NCBI GenBank assembly: GCA_022925895.1
Contig: JAKSYS010000818.1
Location: forward strand, 1 to 22,249
DNA from: Fragilaria crotonensis
Taxonomy: Eukaryota; Bacillariophyta; Fragilariophyceae; Fragilariales; Fragilariaceae
Length of the DNA stretch: 22,249 bases
Direction of reading: 5' to 3'
Part shown: in pieces, positions 4,010 to 22,072 of the stretch
Layout: every line of letters begins with the position of its first letter
Numbering within the stretch: position 1 is the first letter of the stretch
The notes under the pieces: model-generated
Databases searched by the model: none
The model's input: only the letters and a program-made list of their open reading frames with translations
What the model was told of the DNA's origin: nothing
Translations under genes and position numbers: made by a program

Positions 4010-4798
4010 AAGGCCAGCGTATTAGCTGGTCGTGTTTATTTCAGGGTCTCGTCTAAGCGACTGCCCGCACGCATATAATTAATGCTGGATCCGATTTGGG
4101 ATGGGTTCGGCAGCAGAGGTCTTGAATTACAAGTAACCCTATGATCCATCGGAGATGCTTGTTGAATCATTTGATACAGTAATACCCACGCGTTTTACAT
4201 CTAGATTCAAGGCCACCAAATCGTGCTTTCTTATATCTGAAATATATTGTTGACGCATTCAACGAGTCCAAACAAGGGCAGTCTACGTTGGTGCGTCCGA
4301 TGCGCGAGTTTTCGGTCATTTGTTGACACAATCAGCTGATTCTGGGGACAGATGCGCCAAAGATGCCCCCCTCAGGCCTCACTCAGGGATGAATCTCAGA
4401 GCTCGACAATCACTGTCTGTGATAATTATAAAGTTATAGGGTAGGAAGATTACTGCATGTTGCTTCGTCGTTCCAATACTGAACAAGGTAGTACTGTAGT
4501 ACTCGTTACTGGTACAGGTTCTGCTATCTGCCAGCAGGGTCCGTCCAATCTTCACGACTAATTCACGCAAGTAGCAAGTACAATGTACTGGTACGTAGTG
4601 AGTAGTGAGTAGTAGACGGTACTTCTCTACCGGTACTTTTGCCGTTTGTCAGTACTGGAAGTGGTACAAGTACTGTACTCGGGACTCGGGACTCAGGAGT
4701 GAGGGGTGCGGGAGGTGGGAGAGGAGCTTCGAGAAACGCGTTTTACAGTTTTCTGGGCTTTCTTGCCAAACCAAGCTTCGACACGACGACCCTCGTTT
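4010..4798. other. Intergenic region upstream of the methyltransferase-like gene
   Basis: No protein-like frame is seen. The right half contains a GTAC cluster (4489-4682) with a short GTAGTGA tandem near 4596-4616. A pyrimidine-rich stretch ending in TTTTACAG at 4741-4748 resembles a splice acceptor and could serve the following gene. The frame of that gene is open back to about 4706 but its first ATG is at 4799. Confidence 0.4.
4489..4682. repeat. GTAC-dense intergenic cluster 2
   Basis: About 12 GTAC tetramers occur in 190 bp, mostly as AGTACT, GGTAC or GTACTGTAC. The cluster lies just upstream of the methyltransferase-like gene and could overlap its promoter or 5' UTR. Confidence 0.65.
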
Positions 4799-5995
4799 AT
4801 GATTCGACGACACAATTCCGATCTACATGCGAACTATGCATATATTCCCGATCCTTTCATGCGGACAAGGCACCGCCGCTTGTGGCTGTCGAGAATCATG
4901 ATGATGCTGGACTCATGTCTTATCTACCAAGCACGAGCGTTCTTCCCTGTCGTAGCACAACATGCAAGCAATGGCGGTTCGTTTCGGTCGTCGTTGCGGC
5001 GCAACATGACCCCGTTCACCCCCGTACTCGCCCACCAACGACGTCGACTGCTGTCCAGCAGCAGGAGCATTACCAGCAGCATAAGTGCTCATGCGAACGA
5101 AGACAACGGTGATACATCAATCCGGAAGAATGAGAACATTATCGACAAACAGAATGCAAAACGAAATCATGTGATGAGTCGTCAGCTAAAACGCGAAGAT
5201 CGCATCTCGTTCCTTGAATATTCACGGAAAAACGGCGTTGAGTTGTCAATTCCAGAGCAAAAGGAGTTACAAGGACTCCTGTCTACCAACAGTGATGATA
5301 GTTCTGATACAGACATCAGTAACTTTGTGGAACAGTATTCATCCCTCGGCTTTTCAGAAGAGCACGTAGCCTTCAAGGCAACCCACAATCAAGTTTTTGC
5401 ACGCCTCATTTCATACTGTCAATCCAAACATGCTGATCGAACCATCAACGTCTTTTACCTCGACGGTCCTTGCGGTGGAACAACTGAGGCACTGTTGATG
5501 AGTTCCAATTCTTCTCCCTCCACAACAGCACGGTTCATTGAGCCCTATCAGTGCTATACTGCCAACCGACATGCATCAACGTGTCGCGCACTGCAACAAC
5601 GGTTCCCAGCCGTTCACGTCCAACATGCATCAGCTGAGGATGCACTGCTACAGACAAGCGTACCATTTCATGCGTTCTACTTTGATGCATGTGGTGGTCA
5701 CGTGCCGATGATTGTCGATATGATGCGGGCGGCACTCGTGCGGAAACAAGGTGAAACTGTCTTGTCATGGCAACCGCCTGTGGCCATGGGATTCTCTATT
5801 CTTGGTGGTGGTCGAGATTGTGTCGACAAGGAACAAGAGGTAATACAGGCGTTGGTGCAAATGGTGAAGCCCATGAAATGTAGAGTTGCTCGAGTTGGTG
5901 ACGATCCAGAAATGTATGGGATAGACGATGTAGGTACCCTAGTCAAGGTTGAGTCCTTGACCATGACCACGTGGGTAATGATAGAACGCGACTAG
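4799..5995 (+). CDS. SAM-dependent methyltransferase-like (Rossmann fold) protein with organelle leader
   Basis: 398 residues from the first in-frame ATG. The second ATG at 4859 gives 378 residues and a leader MRTRHRR + hydrophobic stretch + QARA|FFP, which resembles a diatom plastid signal-peptide cleavage site with Phe at +1. A mitochondrial presequence is the alternative, as Arg/Ser-rich residues follow. Numbered from 4799, the C-terminal half alternates beta strands and helices: INVFYLDGPCGG (about 216-227) resembles motif I; RFIEPYQ gives strand 2 with an acidic end; VHVQHASAEDAL strand 3; FHAFYFDACGG strand 4 (motif IV position); ETVLSWQPP strand 5. Inferred: a class I methyltransferase fold; the substrate is unknown and no specific family was recognised. 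The gene converges on the proteasome gene with a 108-bp gap. Confidence 0.6.
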   Translation: MIRRHNSDLHANYAYIPDPFMRTRHRRLWLSRIMMMLDSCLIYQARAFFPVVAQHASNGGSFRSSLRRNMTPFTPVLAHQRRRLLSSSRSITSSISAHANEDNGDTSIRKNENIIDKQNAKRNHVMSRQLKREDRISFLEYSRKNGVELSIPEQKELQGLLSTNSDDSSDTDISNFVEQYSSLGFSEEHVAFKATHNQVFARLISYCQSKHADRTINVFYLDGPCGGTTEALLMSSNSSPSTTARFIEPYQCYTANRHASTCRALQQRFPAVHVQHASAEDALLQTSVPFHAFYFDACGGHVPMIVDMMRAALVRKQGETVLSWQPPVAMGFSILGGGRDCVDKEQEVIQALVQMVKPMKCRVARVGDDPEMYGIDDVGTLVKVESLTMTTWVMIERD

Positions 5996-6103: not shown

Positions 6104-7014
6104 CTATTCCTCTCCGGAAGCGCCAGCACGTTTCTCCTCCTGTTCCTGTTCAATTTCCTTGACGACAGTCTCGATTTCGCTTTCTTCGAGCATTGCTTTC
6201 TTTCCTCCACGTCGCACTACACAAATTTCCATTGTCTTGGCACCACTGTCCACAACTTCCAAAAGAGCCTGAATGGCCAATCGTACGCATTGCGACTCCT
6301 CCATTCCCTCGGAATACTGCTTTTCCAAAAACTCCCTTAACGACTTGGCATTCCGCCCAGCAATGACTTGCGCCTTCCATCTGGAATGCGTTCCCGCCGG
6401 ATCTGTCTGATACAATTCCGGAACTCCATTTTCTTCATTCGTCCCGCAGAAAAGAGATGCAATTCCAAATGGTCGGACACCTCCGCGTTGGGTGTACTGT
6501 TGCTGCGTCCTGGCCAAGTATCGTGCCAGGTAGTCAATCGATGGAGCATCCTCCATGGTGAGACGGTAGGATTGGGCCTCCCAGACGGATCTTTTGGATC
6601 AACACACGAGCGTCAGCCGTCAGACCCGCAAAGGCCAAGACGGAACGATCGTCAATCGAAACAATCTTGCGGATCGTACGGGCTTCTTGGAGTCTTTAAT
6701 TTTTTAAATTGTAAAAATGTGTATTGGATAGACATGTTAGGAATTGTGTCCTGATTAACAACATGAAGACAAGATGGAAATCCAGACCTCTACAATGACA
6801 TGACAAACAAATGCCACAACAGAGGACTGGTAGAAAAAACACATGTCTGTCATACTTACTTGGCAAGAGCGCGACGCTCCACAGCAAGGACAACGCAGTC
6901 CTTTCCTTTAATCCCAACGGCAGTACTCCCCCGTCGGACCGCCTCCATGGCGTATTCTACTTGAAACAAGTGACCATCAGGAGAAAAGACGGTGATGGCA
7001 CGATCGTACGACAT
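6104..7014 (-). CDS. PSMA7: 20S proteasome subunit alpha type-7 (alpha4), two exons, with one-base frameshift
   Basis: Exon 1 is 7014-6860 (51 codons plus 2 nt) and exon 2 is 6693-6104, separated by a 166-bp intron (GTAAGT donor, ...AAAG acceptor). Seen: the alpha-subunit signature [20 protein letters not shown] at residues 2-21, then [11 protein letters not shown], and in exon 2 [35 protein letters not shown] and [10 protein letters not shown], ending in a Glu/Lys-rich tail. Known: alpha4 is one of seven subunits forming the outer ring of the 20S core; it has no catalytic role and its tail helps dock activators. Odd: the frame breaks at the GGG of 6580-6582 (minus strand). With one G removed the frame runs ...[19 protein letters not shown] and the CDS becomes exactly 744 nt, 247 residues, the normal length. 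Human alpha4 has 248. The frameshift is probably an assembly indel in an essential gene. Confidence 0.93.
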
Positions 7015-7850: not shown

Positions 7851-9607
7851 TCACTTGGTCAATGAGCCGGAGTAAGAAAAGGTACTTAGCGCGTCCCAGC
7901 CATCATCCTTGGAAGGCTTTTGGTTGATAGCGAGCGAGAGGGCACCCCGAATCATGTCATGGTCATTAATGATTCTAGCATCATTTTTGTCGAATTCTCG
8001 ATAGCGTCGATGGTATTCTACCAGCCCCTTGATTGTCAAGTCCTGGTTGTGAAGAGGATCAAACAGGACAGGAGTGAAGTTGAATTCTAGCAACCAGGCC
8101 CGTCCCGACTCGTCGATCATAAAGTCAGCTGAAAACAGCTCAAACTGCTTTTGATTCGGTCGAGGCAGTAGTTTCCTTTGTTCTACAGCACGGCCGACGA
8201 CGGCTACCATGATTTGTTGGCAAGATTCATAGGCAGTCGGCCATCCAGACCAAACGTCGCAGTGCTCCCGGTGCTTTAATTGCAAATCACGGAGAATAGT
8301 AACTTGTGTGTCTCGGCTTGTATCGGTGGGGCTCCAGGGGTGAGGCGCAATGGAGAGAAAAGGGTGTCGATGGGTAAACAGATCCCACGTGGCGTTTTCA
8401 CCTCCAGCAGAACACTGCAAGTAGGCGTATTGCTTCAAATGACACTTGTGGCCATCAACAGTCAACAGCGGATTTGACACATGGGGCTGAACCACATATC
8501 GTCCATCAGGAAGAGCAGCCTCTAGGCATTCTGCTGCTGAAAGGAACGCTTGAACGGCACGCCCTCCATTTTTATCCGTCTCCTTGAGGAACCACAAACG
8601 CGGTGTGGCATCTGAGTTTGGCTCGTCATCCACCCATTTCCCAAATTCCAAGCGATACGTTTTTGGCATGAATTCGTTGGAAAGTTGGACAACCTTTTCT
8701 TTTTCATCCAGCCACTCCCTACCTTTAGAAACATGCTAATGCGACTGAACTGCGGTTCGTCGCTCAAATCCACGATGCGTTTGCCCAATGGACACGAATA
8801 CCGTTTCCCGGTTAGAGGTTCGTCGTACCATGGTTGCGTCGGAAACTGTTGCCAGTTCTCCGTCAAGTGTCCGAGATATAGAGACGCATGTCCGCCACGA
8901 CCACAGAAGCTATACAGTTGCAGAGACTTCTTGCGGCCATCGTTGGAACCGTCCTCATCGTTCTGGTATTTGTATTGGTCCAAACCGACCGCGACGTCAA
9001 TGAGTTCAGCAAGTGTGACTACAGAACCATAAACAGGAATCAAATGGTCCATGACGGCATCGCATCGTTTCTCGTCATCATCTTGAACACAATCTCTAAC
9101 GACATAAACTGCTATCCCCGCATCGCTCAAGCTTTGCGTGACAGCTTGTACTGCATACCCCGCCTTGATGCCGACTACTGTGGCTTGGACCGGAGTACTT
9201 GCCGCAACTTGGTCGTTCGTCTTACAACCAAGGACTTGGTCAATCAATTCTTGTGTTGGTAAATGTTGTGGTCGCCATACCGCAGTGTCGCCTTCTTCAT
9301 ACAGCATCATTTCGGATCCAGGATATCCCTCAAGGAACCAATGAGCTGCATCGTTGCCTAATTTGGCGTTGAGTCGCTGAAAGCCACCATAGATTTTGTG
9401 ATGCGGCGGAACGCCTTGATACGATGATGGGAATCGAACCCCCATGTGTACAATCTTCCAACCAGCTCGCCGGGCAACGTCCATGCCAATTTGAATCCTA
9501 TCGATTAGCGCATCTCGTTTCGATGCTGGAACGATGGATCCCAGCAAATCAGGTTGCATGTCGCAGACAACGAGGACCTGGAGGGATGCCGTTGCTACGG
9601 AAGACAT
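7851..9607 (-). CDS. Isochorismatase-like / tubulin-tyrosine-ligase-like fusion protein, with one-base frameshift
   Basis: From ATG 9607 the N-terminal 200 residues form an isochorismatase-like cysteine hydrolase fold: VLVVCDMQPDLLG with the first triad Asp at D16, and VVGIKAGYAVQAVTQSLSDAG at 144-164, where the family's 'GvatdvCV' nucleophile loop has Ala152 at the Cys position. The C-terminal part is a TTL (ATP-grasp) domain: FMPKTYRL, LWFLKETDKNGG (ATP-binding lysine loop), VVQPHVSNPLLTVDGHK, FSADFMID and WLLEFNFTP with the metal-binding E-x-N. The two halves are in different frames. They join at 8717-8719: GGG read as GGGG gives ...MFLKVGEWLDEKEKVVQL... leading directly into FMPKTY, for 585 residues in all. 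Inferred: one gene with a one-base deletion in the assembly. The TTL half looks catalytically complete (it ligates amino acids to protein tails in known members); the hydrolase half is probably inactive or binding-only. Confidence 0.75.
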
Positions 9608-13308: not shown

Positions 13309-14940
13309 TTATGCACTCAACTTCTTCAGCATGAATATGCTGCTCAACGAATCCTGCACTGCCGCATCCGGGGTGGACGCACCCGACGTGACTCCCATGA
13401 CCACATCCTTGGACATGTCCAGGATGAAGGGTTCCGTCACGATTTGGCCATCCACGGTTCGGTGCGTGATGGTGTTGTCGGCTTTAATGCAGTCACCTCG
13501 GTTAATGTGAAAGGCACGAATTCCCGCGTGGACGGGGATCTCTAGCAAATGGGCCGTGTTTGAGGAATCCCATCCGCCAATCACAAGGATAAAGTCCAAT
13601 CCCAAGGTTGACGCGTTTTCTACCAATTCGTGAATTGCGTCTTGTCGTTCCTGATCGGCAAGTAGAGACAAGTATGAGTTGGCGATGCTGATGTGTGCAA
13701 CAGAGACGCTCACCGTGTTTGTCCTCGTATTTACAAAGGTTGGGTACGGTACATACCTGGGTCGCATCACAGATGGTATCGAACTCAACATAATGGCTTT
13801 GGGCATCCACAGGTCCATACTTTTTCATCATAGTCTTTTGAAGCAACTGCCCGATCGCACGGGTCTCCTTCTTATACATGGTGGTTTGATTGGCAAGACC
13901 TAGCTTTTGAAGGTGAATATCGGGATCAAACCCAGCACTGTGAGCACCAGCAAAGTGTTTCATGAAGGCCTCCTTATCACCTCCATTCAAAATATAATCA
14001 GCAACCATTTCTGCTTCCTTCATGTTCTTGACACAAATGTAATCCTCACAGAAGGATGTTGTCGCGACAGTCTCTTCGTGACTGTATTTTCCGTGAATAA
14101 TGCTGGTGAGTCCCTTCTTTTGGTGCATGTCTACGGTATTCCAGACTTTGGATACCCAGGGGCAGGTGGTGTCGACGACTTCGACGTTCTTTTATTGAGT
14201 TGAGAAACATACGTTAGCTCTTATATTGGGGAGGGACACATACATTCGAGTTTCTTACCTTCTTATCCAACATATCCATTTCTTCAAAGGATGCTCCAAA
14301 CGCAGGAAGAATGACGACATCGCCTTCACCGATGGTGGAGAAGTCTTTTCCGCTTCCTGTCTTTTGAATGAAATTGACATTCATGGCCAAGAGATTGTCA
14401 TTGACTTCTGGATTGTGAATGAGTTCGTTTGTAATATGAACCTTCTTGCCAGGAAAGTGTTCGACGGCCTCATAGGCCAACGCGATGGATCGTTCAACAC
14501 CCCAACAGAAACCAAAATCCTAACAATGGGTCAGGGCAATCTGTGGTGCGCGACAAATGCTTTCTCGCACACCTTTTCTATCTTACCTTGGCCAAATGAA
14601 CTTTAACTCCATCGCGTTCGACAACATAATTGCTGGATTTGAGATCCTTGACGAGTGTCGATTCGAATTGTTCTCCCATGGTCGTTTCAACTTTTTCGCG
14701 AACTTCCTTGAATCCCTGACGATGGAATTGTTCAGATTTCATGAATCGCAATCGTTCCGCCTTTTTCGATGTTTTCGTAATTTCATCTTGAGAAGCAGCA
14801 GACGTGGATGCCGACGATTGTTGCAAAACAAGGGCCGAGGAGGACGATGGAGCGCGACCGACAAAGGCGCAAGGCATAAAAGCCTCAGTAGTCGTCACGG
14901 AGGAACCGATGAGGATCGAAAGGGCAAGAGAGAGCTTCAT
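13309..14940 (-). CDS. ispH: Plastid 4-hydroxy-3-methylbut-2-enyl diphosphate reductase (HDR/IspH), four exons
   Basis: Exons 14940-14587, 14519-14259, 14188-13757 and 13650-13309, with introns of 67, 70 and 106 bp (all GT-AG) at codon boundaries; 462 residues. Reaction: HMBPP is reduced to IPP and DMAPP, the last step of the plastid MEP isoprenoid pathway, using a [4Fe-4S] cluster. Seen: a signal peptide ([20 protein letters not shown]) followed by FMPCAFVGR, that is A|F at 20/21, the diatom plastid bipartite signal; then a Ser-rich transit peptide; cluster cysteines in [11 protein letters not shown] (C123), [11 protein letters not shown] (C214) and [11 protein letters not shown] (C345); [10 protein letters not shown] and [10 protein letters not shown] near the C-terminus. 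The wide C214-C345 spacing compared with the E. coli enzyme fits the plant/cyanobacterial type, which has an insertion there. The gene is intact. Confidence 0.96.
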
Positions 14941-18749: not shown

Positions 18750-21700
18750 TTAGGCAGCATTATCTTCATTCCCTTCCTTCAATGTTGCAAGGACAAAGCG
18801 AATGTCGAAGTCCAAAGCACAGCGATGTGTTTTAAATCGTTTCATGAGTTGTTCAATCTTCTTATAAAGGAGCTGCTGTTTTGCAGCTGCGGCAATTCCA
18901 GGCACATTTTCAGCAATCTCATCAATGTTGTTTGTCTCTCGTTCAAGGTAATAATATGTGCATATGTAGGCTCGTGCTCTTGCGGCATATTTTCTAACCC
19001 TTTCTTTTGTCAAGACTGTTGTTGGGCAAAGACACCTTGTCACAAGATTGATGAAGTTGGCTCGACCCTTTTTCTCTCGCATTGGTGTTCTCCTCATTAG
19101 TGCCTTTGCCTGTGCCCATGTGTACTCAATCCCTTCACCTGCGAATTCGCAATGAAACTTTGGCGTTAACATCACACGCAAACCAAGTTGGGAGCCCAAA
19201 AATTGCAGAGCTGTTTCTTCCGTCTTGAAGTCATAACAGTTGCCCATCAACCCTTTAAGCGAAGACGATTCGATAATATGACCAGTCAAGATATCTTTCC
19301 GTCCGCCAAGCGTATAAAATGATGTGTTGATCAATTTGTTTCCTTGTTTGTCCACATGTTCTTTGCAGTTGGACGGATCAATCCACCCTCGCTCCCATAA
19401 GACTTGGAGTAGTCCTTTTGCTTTGCCAAGCCAACCTTCGTTGACATAGACTTTCTCGTGCATCAGACTGATGCCATGGATAGCGGCAAGTTCCTTCAGC
19501 TCATTCAATGGGCGATTGGACTCTACCGTGATGCCTGATTCCTCGAGCAATGCAAATGCCAACTCATTCCGTGTTCGTGGTACATTTTTGGGGGGGCGCC
19601 CACGGTTGTCGTGATTGTCATACTTCCGTCTCGCTTGTTCTGCTGTAGCCAACCACCATGGACCCTGGTCATCGGCTTCAAAGACCATGCTCTGTTGATC
19701 GCCTACCTGCAGTATAGAATCAAATGGGCCAAGGCAGTTACTCGTTATCACAGATGAGTGCATTTTTGGTTGCTTGCCTCCAAAACTCCGCGACATACTG
19801 TCTGCATCAAGAGCCCCATCTTTTTTCCTAGCATGACCTTGACTGTGATCGAACATAAAAACAAAGTCAAATTGCGGTCGGAAAATTTTCAGGCAATCAA
19901 CAACATCTTCAAGTTGAATTGCCATATGGTAGCTATTCCAATAGCCACCTTCGAGGCCTGATCAGCAAGTGCCGGACAAAGGAGACTCCGTCAACGGCTG
20001 CTTCCGAGTATGCTTGTTGACTTCGAGTGCAGCAGTTTGGTCAATGTAGTGTGTTCCTCGTCGCAAAGCATTGACTATGGTCAGGTCTTCATCCGTCATT
20101 GGCATTCCGAATCCAGTGTCGCGAGACACAAACGCAGATACCATGAGTCCTTCACCAAGCGATTTGGGAAACAATCCTCGCTCTTGATTCGGGCCAACCC
20201 AACTCTTTGAGGGAAACAGAAATTGGGAGAAACTGATTCGTCCTGACCATAAATTTCAATCGGCCTTGAATTAGGAGGAGCACGTACACTCATCGACGCA
20301 ATTTTCCATGCATGGCATCAAACGTCTCGTTTCCACGACAACTGTAACAGTAGTCAATATGAAACTCATAGTAAACGCTGTTGCAATCTTCGTTGATATA
20401 CTTGTAGCCAAACTCAGGATTGAGATTTGCCGTTTCAAGTTCACTTAAAGCATATTGCACCCATCGTAAACATTTTGGTTCAAGCTCAGTGAGGTACTGC
20501 TGACAAAATTGCTTGCGAGATAAAACAACGTCATCACGTTCATGACCGTCAACATAATACGATTTTTGTTGTATACTATATGCGAAGCCAATTAGTTGCA
20601 TCCATCGCCAGCATGTCGGAATTCCAAATTTGTAATTCCGTGTACCTTCAGAAAAGTTCTTGTGTCAGCGATGATGCTGCTTGGTGACCTTCGTGATCGT
20701 TACACCACTGCTGGTATATACTTGGGAAGAGCTCTTCAATGCAGAATACTCGCACTAATTCAACTGTCAGAATTGACAGGTTACCTAAGCCGAATGCTGC
20801 TATTTGATCTTTTGTATCGGGATACTTCATGAAGAGAAGTGGAAAAGGGCGTTTCCCACATCTCACAATATGATCAGGGTGAAGGAATGTCCTGCACTTA
20901 CGAAACTCCAAATTCCAATCTTGAACGCTTCTAGGTTTCGTAGCTTGCACCACACCAAGTTCATTGAGCTGTCGGCAGGCTTCCCTGCAGCACTGCTTCC
21001 ACGTCCATGAATTCATGTGCCGCATGGCAGTGCGGTATGCCAAGCACAGAATGATTGCCCTGCTCTTCAAGACAAAAATGTCAGATTTAGAACAAACATT
21101 TTCAGCATCACGCCCTTGCACCACATCTCGCCAGCCATTCAGAGTTTTGCTTGCGGATTGTAGAGCGACAACATGACCCTCCAAAATGTCTAGAACATTA
21201 TTGCCACCGCCAAGAATGTCGGCTGAAAATTCCTCAAAAGATGTGCTCCCTCCACCCGCAAATAAATTCCATGCATCTCGACTATTCCAAAAACACAATG
21301 TACTGGCTTGGATGTGAAATGCTGATGCATCGTCTCGTACAAAATTGCATGGCATTCCTTCGTGGCGTTCCTCTTCTTTGTCTTGTTGCTGATGGCAATC
21401 GGAAGAACTTGTACTATTCGGAGACGAAGCCCCTGCAGGCCGCATCGTTGTGATTGATTCCAGGACACTTCTAGTGGAAGCAGAAGTCTCATAGAAATGC
21501 AGTATAGTGTCTCCTTTGCTTGGTTGTGATGACTTGTCCTGAGTGACTGCAGTCGTCGGAAGTTTATCCTTGAGCGTCATCACAGAGAAAAGTGATGAAA
21601 CGGAACTTCTTGTTATGACGATTGCTGACATCACCTCCATGGCAACCGAAATGACACTGTCTTTCCACTTGATGTCAAGAGGACAGGGATAGTCTGCCTG

Positions 21701-22072
21701 CTCAAATGGATCAGTGAGCATGTAGTAAAACTTTTTTTGGAATCTGACACGGAATATTCCAGTAGGGTTTGTCCCATCAAATCGGTCCATTGCGGGCCCA
21801 TCAAAGAATTGTTTGCTTCGAATCATTGCTGCATTTAGCATGGTAGCATCAACTCTACACACACTTTCATCAACAAGACCTGATAAAGTCAATATTTCAG
21901 CCCATGTCTCGGCTGGCAACCATTTTCTCCACACTTGCTGTCGATGATTTTTGTCATCACGAAGCCGCATGAAGGCATTTGTTATAATCACATTTTTGGG
22001 AGTTGGGAGCTTCATCCCCGAGGCCTCACTCATTTTGCTCAATCCCCAAGGCATCAAAGTAGAATATGCCAT
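18750..22072 (-). pseudogene. DDE-type transposase-like gene, disrupted (about 1107 codons)
   Basis: Consecutive minus-strand frames form one protein: 22072-20648, about 20650-20290, about 20300-20240, about 20230-19965 and 19961-18750. Seen: an N-terminal part of unknown function with a Gln/Glu-rich linker; a likely DNA-binding helical region (WTWKQCCREACRQLNELG ... GKRPFPLLFMKYPDTKDQI); KSYYVDGHERDDVV; then three acidic sites, D in YGQDES (20240-20242), D in FMFDHSQGH (19848-19850) and E in GEGIEYTWAQAK (19125-19127). The last resembles the NPIE-x-W site of Tc1/mariner-like enzymes. PKGLLQVLWERGWID and RKYAARARAYICTYY follow the pattern of a widespread, uncharacterised eukaryotic DDE endonuclease family as I remember it. 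Breaks: an extra T at 20652-20655, a missing base near 20294-20305, a missing T at 20230-20232 and an in-frame TGA at 19962-19964. After the three shifts the length is exactly 1108 codons. No terminal inverted repeats or target duplication were found. Confidence 0.7.

Follow-up and report, generated by a model that had tools for sequence, protein, structure and literature searches.

Two domains in two reading frames at one diatom locus

The window analysed here is a 22,249-nucleotide stretch of the Fragilaria crotonensis genome (contig JAKSYS010000818.1 of assembly GCA_022925895.1), and the gene of interest occupies positions 7851 to 9607 of it. The gene lies on the minus strand and is read from 9607 to 7851; the plus strand of the same interval is crowded with stop codons. 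The original prediction placed here a single gene in which an isochorismatase-like domain is fused to a tubulin tyrosine ligase (TTL)-like domain. The domain names and the pairing stand, and both domains were found where they had been placed, but they sit in two different minus-strand frames and not in one. The prediction made no mention of this break in frame, which has to be accounted for before the fusion can count as certain. The first, frame A, is an open reading frame (ORF) of 361 codons from an ATG at 9607 (8522..9607), and from about 8735 downwards it no longer shares the frame of the coding signal that follows. The second, frame B (7851..8735), has 294 open codons followed by a stop (7851-7853) and carries the TTL-like ATP-grasp domain; its ATG-started ORF runs from 8669 to 7851, and the same frame is already open from 8735. 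We estimate a probability of roughly 55% that the two halves belong to one diatom gene, encoding a protein of about 585 residues in which a divergent TTL-like ATP-grasp domain comes after an isochorismatase fold that lacks the hydrolase Lys and Cys.

The N-terminal half matches the isochorismatase-like family PF00857 over residues 11-200 of frame A (9008..9577, minus strand), with 42 bits against a curated cut-off of 27 and 41.3 bits in a search of the whole genome (assembly size 62.1 Mb, 881 contigs). A structural model predicted for frame A likewise matched the isochorismatase fold in a structure search. However, alignments showed that the Asp-Lys-Cys triad of the cysteine hydrolases in this family is incomplete: Asp16 is retained, whereas the Lys position is Arg112 and the Cys position is Ala152. 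The full triad was retained in all 19 bacterial relatives aligned, and the Lys and Cys in all five sequences aligned from the same genome. Biuret hydrolase, RutB and maleamate amidase, also PF00857 members, carry the Asp-Lys-Cys triad and thus differ from the window protein. Since the family Lys and Cys are replaced, it would be wrong to treat the domain as a typical cysteine hydrolase, and the label of cysteine hydrolase first given to it implies a cysteine that is absent. It had also been suggested that such a domain could bind or deliver a substrate or act as a regulatory module; with Lys and Cys lost, a binding or regulatory role would suit it better than cysteine hydrolysis.

The C-terminal half matches the TTL family PF03133 in frame B with 60.8 bits (curated cut-off 20.1). 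The match falls in two minus-strand stretches, one at 8415..8687 (profile positions 38-126; the lysine loop, LWFLKETDKNGG) and one at 8064..8237 (profile positions 203-261; FSADFMID and the LLEFN metal site). The lysine loop FLKETDKNGG, FSADFMID and LLEFN, all of which had been claimed for this half, are indeed present in frame B. Among solved structures, frame B matched 5vlq, which we take to be TTLL3 (expect value (E) 4.1e-6), 3tig (E 1.3e-5) and the Pby1 chain 6y3z (E 0.0024).

Lys150 is a residue of the ATP site in TTL. Frame B retains the ATP-Mg site of TTL and the TTL-like (TTLL) enzymes: its K51, D204, E217 and N219 align with residues of the Lys150, Asp318, Glu331 and Asn333 types, and the Pro336-type residue is retained as well. 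The window protein shares this ATP-grasp core with TTL, TTLL3 (5vlq) and TTLL5. Unlike them, it has Lys101 at the R202 position and Ser128 at the R222 position, and the Asn of the HxTN stretch is replaced by Ile. A table of PMC10335831 gives the TTL residues D318, E331, N333, P336, R202 and R222; the two arginines are listed there as critical in TTL, and both are conserved in TTLL5. Frame B therefore departs, at both arginines, from the tubulin tyrosine ligases and glutamylases proper. Tubulin as a substrate is not supported by these residues, nor is the earlier view of this half as a ligase that places amino acids on the tails of proteins.

The frame break between the halves

The switch from frame A to frame B was placed at 8694..8735 (minus strand) by a codon-usage score. 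The score, trained on 6652 codons from other open frames of the genome (some of them without a Pfam match), tracks frame A as far as about 8750 and picks up frame B at about 8700, so that coding signal passes from one to the other without a gap. This course of the score and the two family matches above curated cut-offs amount to more than chance. The frames of one fused gene might be joined by a real intron; examples are a 29-base GT..AG (8722-8694) and an intron of about 80-110 bases whose end is at 8719. A single open frame would be restored by any of thirty GT..AG pairs (donors 8960-8695, lengths 18-319 bases), and a weak stretch of frame-A coding score at 8900-8750 is compatible with an intron there. 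Introns are also visible in two neighbouring genes of the window. The LytB gene (13309-14128, minus strand) is interrupted by one of about 106 bases, whose donor at 13756 reads GTATGT, and the proteasome-subunit gene has one of about 166 bases with a GTAAGT donor. By contrast, the donor matches at most 4 of 6 bases in all 30 choices. The donor of the 29-base choice is weak and its acceptor rich in purines; frame B scores as coding across these bases, and the choice is shorter than all 15 exon-to-exon gaps (43-224 bases, a rough range taken by eye from profile edges). We consider a real intron somewhat unlikely.

Frame breaks of another kind occur in ordinary genes of this genome. In the proteasome-subunit gene (6583-6585, minus strand), one profile match ends at 6585 and the next starts at 6583, passing from profile position 65 to 66; this break is smaller than any intron and suggests that indels are present in the window's contig. 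A break of the same kind lies at about 24803-24810 of a different contig, in a light-harvesting gene (G000:C71:24300-25200). Because such breaks occur in both genes and the GT..AG donors are poor, an assembly indel is favoured, and it is most likely that the break between frames A and B is of this origin rather than an overlooked intron. The predicted protein would have about 585 residues if the break is an indel and 487-577 among the intron choices listed. Under either explanation the locus would yield one fused protein, presumably from a single transcript.

Copy number, relatives and surroundings

The gene is single-copy in its own genome at the DNA level, and protein searches of that genome gave no convincing second copy. 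The TTL half had one more weak match there, on contig C875 (E 0.079, 33% over a part). Among the matches listed for the diatom genome, contig C800 was the only one with both the PF00857 and PF03133 families. Scans of viral contigs with each half found no relative, and those with two paralogues from the same genome gave nothing useful. With the TTL half only, prokaryote genome contigs yielded 60 pattern matches and zero relatives, and phages no relative; with the isochorismatase half only, plasmids gave no relative and one weak partial match, which covered 37% of the query at E 0.09. Neither half had a match in NCBIfam.

Among 398 genomes from the phylum to which genome G002 belongs, 47 matched PF03133 at E 0.001 and 42 did so above the cut-off, mainly as short pieces. 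We considered whether the two families occur as neighbouring genes in bacteria. No isochorismatase profile match lay in the flanks, of up to 1.5 kb on either side, of the 30 PF03133 loci examined (among 54 matches listed), and this candidate was rejected. Of the four positive controls that the profile recovered, three came from its training set and one was the window gene.

Elsewhere in the window, Pfam supports genes for PGK, an ATP synthase subunit, LytB, a SUZ-domain protein and a proteasome subunit. Three long ORFs have no Pfam match: 4706-5995 (plus strand, 429 aa), 18750-19925 (minus strand, 391 aa) and 20648-22072 (minus strand, 474 aa). Scans for Rfam families and tRNAs gave no hits in the window. 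For one light-harvesting protein of the genome, the best solved chains are 6ly5 and 6l4u, both diatom proteins, at 270 bits, with the next chain at 186 bits; this agrees with the diatom origin named in the original prediction.

Discussion

Both domains, the lost triad residues, the retained ATP and Mg residues and the gapless adjoining of the coding halves are observed directly, whereas the single transcript, the ligase activity, its acceptor and the role of the first domain are deduced. Conserved residues suggest ATP and Mg binding by the C-terminal domain, which would then activate a carboxylate and ligate it onto an amino group. Because the R202 and R222 positions are Lys and Ser, this ligation would probably not take place on tubulin in the manner of TTL, and the acceptor may be a different one. 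The N-terminal domain would no longer be a cysteine hydrolase; it may bind a small ligand, or it may oligomerise and regulate the ligase.

Several observations weigh against a fused protein of this kind. The sequence as given has no single open frame spanning both domains. Between 8900 and 8750 frame A scores poorly for coding, and therefore the edge of the frame switch is not sharp. The stretch between the matched domains (8736..9007, minus strand, read in frame A) is where the N-terminal part of a TTL domain would be expected; no sequence match was found in it, and its coding score is weak in part. Joining the frame-A tail to the TTL half gave 59.9 and 59.0 bits, compared with 60.8 without the tail and 61.2 with a shuffled tail. 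Because the tail neither raised nor lengthened the match, there is no sequence proof that the TTL domain begins in frame A, and the tail as a TTL N-terminus was unsupported by Pfam and by comparison with eight TTL proteins of the same genome. The frame-A model is weak, with a predicted local distance difference test (pLDDT) score of 49.7 and Foldseek template modelling (TM) scores to the query of 0.37-0.42 among the 50 matches listed, and the single-sequence model of frame B is unusable (pLDDT 35). The R222 position is variable in other TTL paralogues of the same genome, so the change to Ser is not unique to this gene.

Searches with one or both halves in viral contigs, prokaryote genomes, phages, plasmids and the same genome gave no homologue with the fusion, a further point against one fused gene. 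Together with the differing frames of the sequence, this would fit two genes lying side by side, or a single gene so decayed that it no longer yields one protein. However, the two coding signals adjoin without a gap, whereas neighbouring genes stand hundreds of bases off. Frame B is too short for a complete TTL, codon signal is present in both halves, and frame breaks are seen in ordinary genes as well. Two separate genes are unlikely because the halves are gapless and because frame B has its first ATG only inside the motif where the TTL match starts; we regard separation or decay as doubtful.

The loss of the hydrolase Cys also deserves caution. EntB is an active enzyme, and by our alignment by eye it carries Gly at the Cys position. 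Loss of the Cys alone is thus no proof of inactivity, which counts against our reading of the N-terminal domain and weakens the proposal that the domain is dead since its Cys is missing. A bifunctional enzyme can be imagined under any of the fused-gene explanations, in which a Cys-free enol-ether hydrolase like EntB or PhzD passes its product carboxylate to the ligase. However, the Lys is replaced too (Arg112), the ranks of the structural matches to the frame-A model are tied across the isochorismatase family, and the sequence search gave weak matches to other branches (E 0.72 and 1.5). We hold such an enzyme to be quite improbable and prefer a single protein whose N-terminal domain would no longer act as a cysteine hydrolase.

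The pairing of an isochorismatase-like with a TTL-like domain had been thought undescribed, and no description of it appeared in the result lists of a literature search. However, other fusions of a hydrolase fold with a TTL-like domain have been published. Yeast Pby1, whose chain is among the structural matches of the window TTL half, also has an N-terminal hydrolase-fold domain followed by a TTL-like ATP-grasp, although its own N-terminal fold is SurE-like and not isochorismatase. According to PMC8984151, Pby1 is a decapping activator in which ATP-grasp catalysis is dispensable in vivo. The animal C7orf58 subfamily similarly links a TTL-like ATP-grasp to a hydrolase-type domain. As set out in PMC2824669, its layout is a TTL-like ATP-grasp, another domain and a PC-esterase, and the protein is described as secreted; in contrast to the window protein, the esterase is C-terminal, has a GDSL/SGNH-like fold and is separated by the extra domain. 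Because Pby1 and C7orf58 each join a hydrolase fold to a TTL domain, the window gene is not a new kind of fusion, and it appears to be a new combination of known parts.

A protein of the same genome, L005 (G000:C252:33056-36724, match 34556-35224, minus strand), has a TTL-like domain and a class-V aminotransferase or cysteine-desulfurase-like domain in one 895-codon frame. It scores 79 bits for PF03133 and 127 bits for PF00266 (Aminotran_5), and its best solved chains are FGM3 and UstD. Like the window gene, it joins a TTL-like domain to a small-molecule-enzyme domain, but its partner is a pyridoxal phosphate enzyme domain and lies at the C-terminus. Among eight other TTL loci, L005 was the best match of the window TTL half, with 26% over 211 residues and, at an assumed database size, E 9.3e-6. 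Because this similarity is weak, L005 is only a hint about function, but this genome may have in it a second case of a TTL domain joined to a metabolic enzyme. One of six TTL members aligned, perhaps L003 (G000:C109), has weak tetratricopeptide repeat matches (E 0.0018).

TTL-like enzymes are usually taken to be modifiers of tubulin or other proteins. A more speculative proposal, which we think unlikely as it stands, is that diatoms have moved TTL-like ATP-grasp ligases off tubulin and into fused metabolic enzymes. Here a former hydrolase pocket without the full triad would present a small carboxylic acid for joining to an amino acid, and L005 would be a second case. A diatom protein that combines an intact ATP and Mg site, altered acceptor residues and a seemingly inactive hydrolase domain would point to the making or tagging of small molecules as a further role of the TTL family, for which the window protein offers a defined test case.
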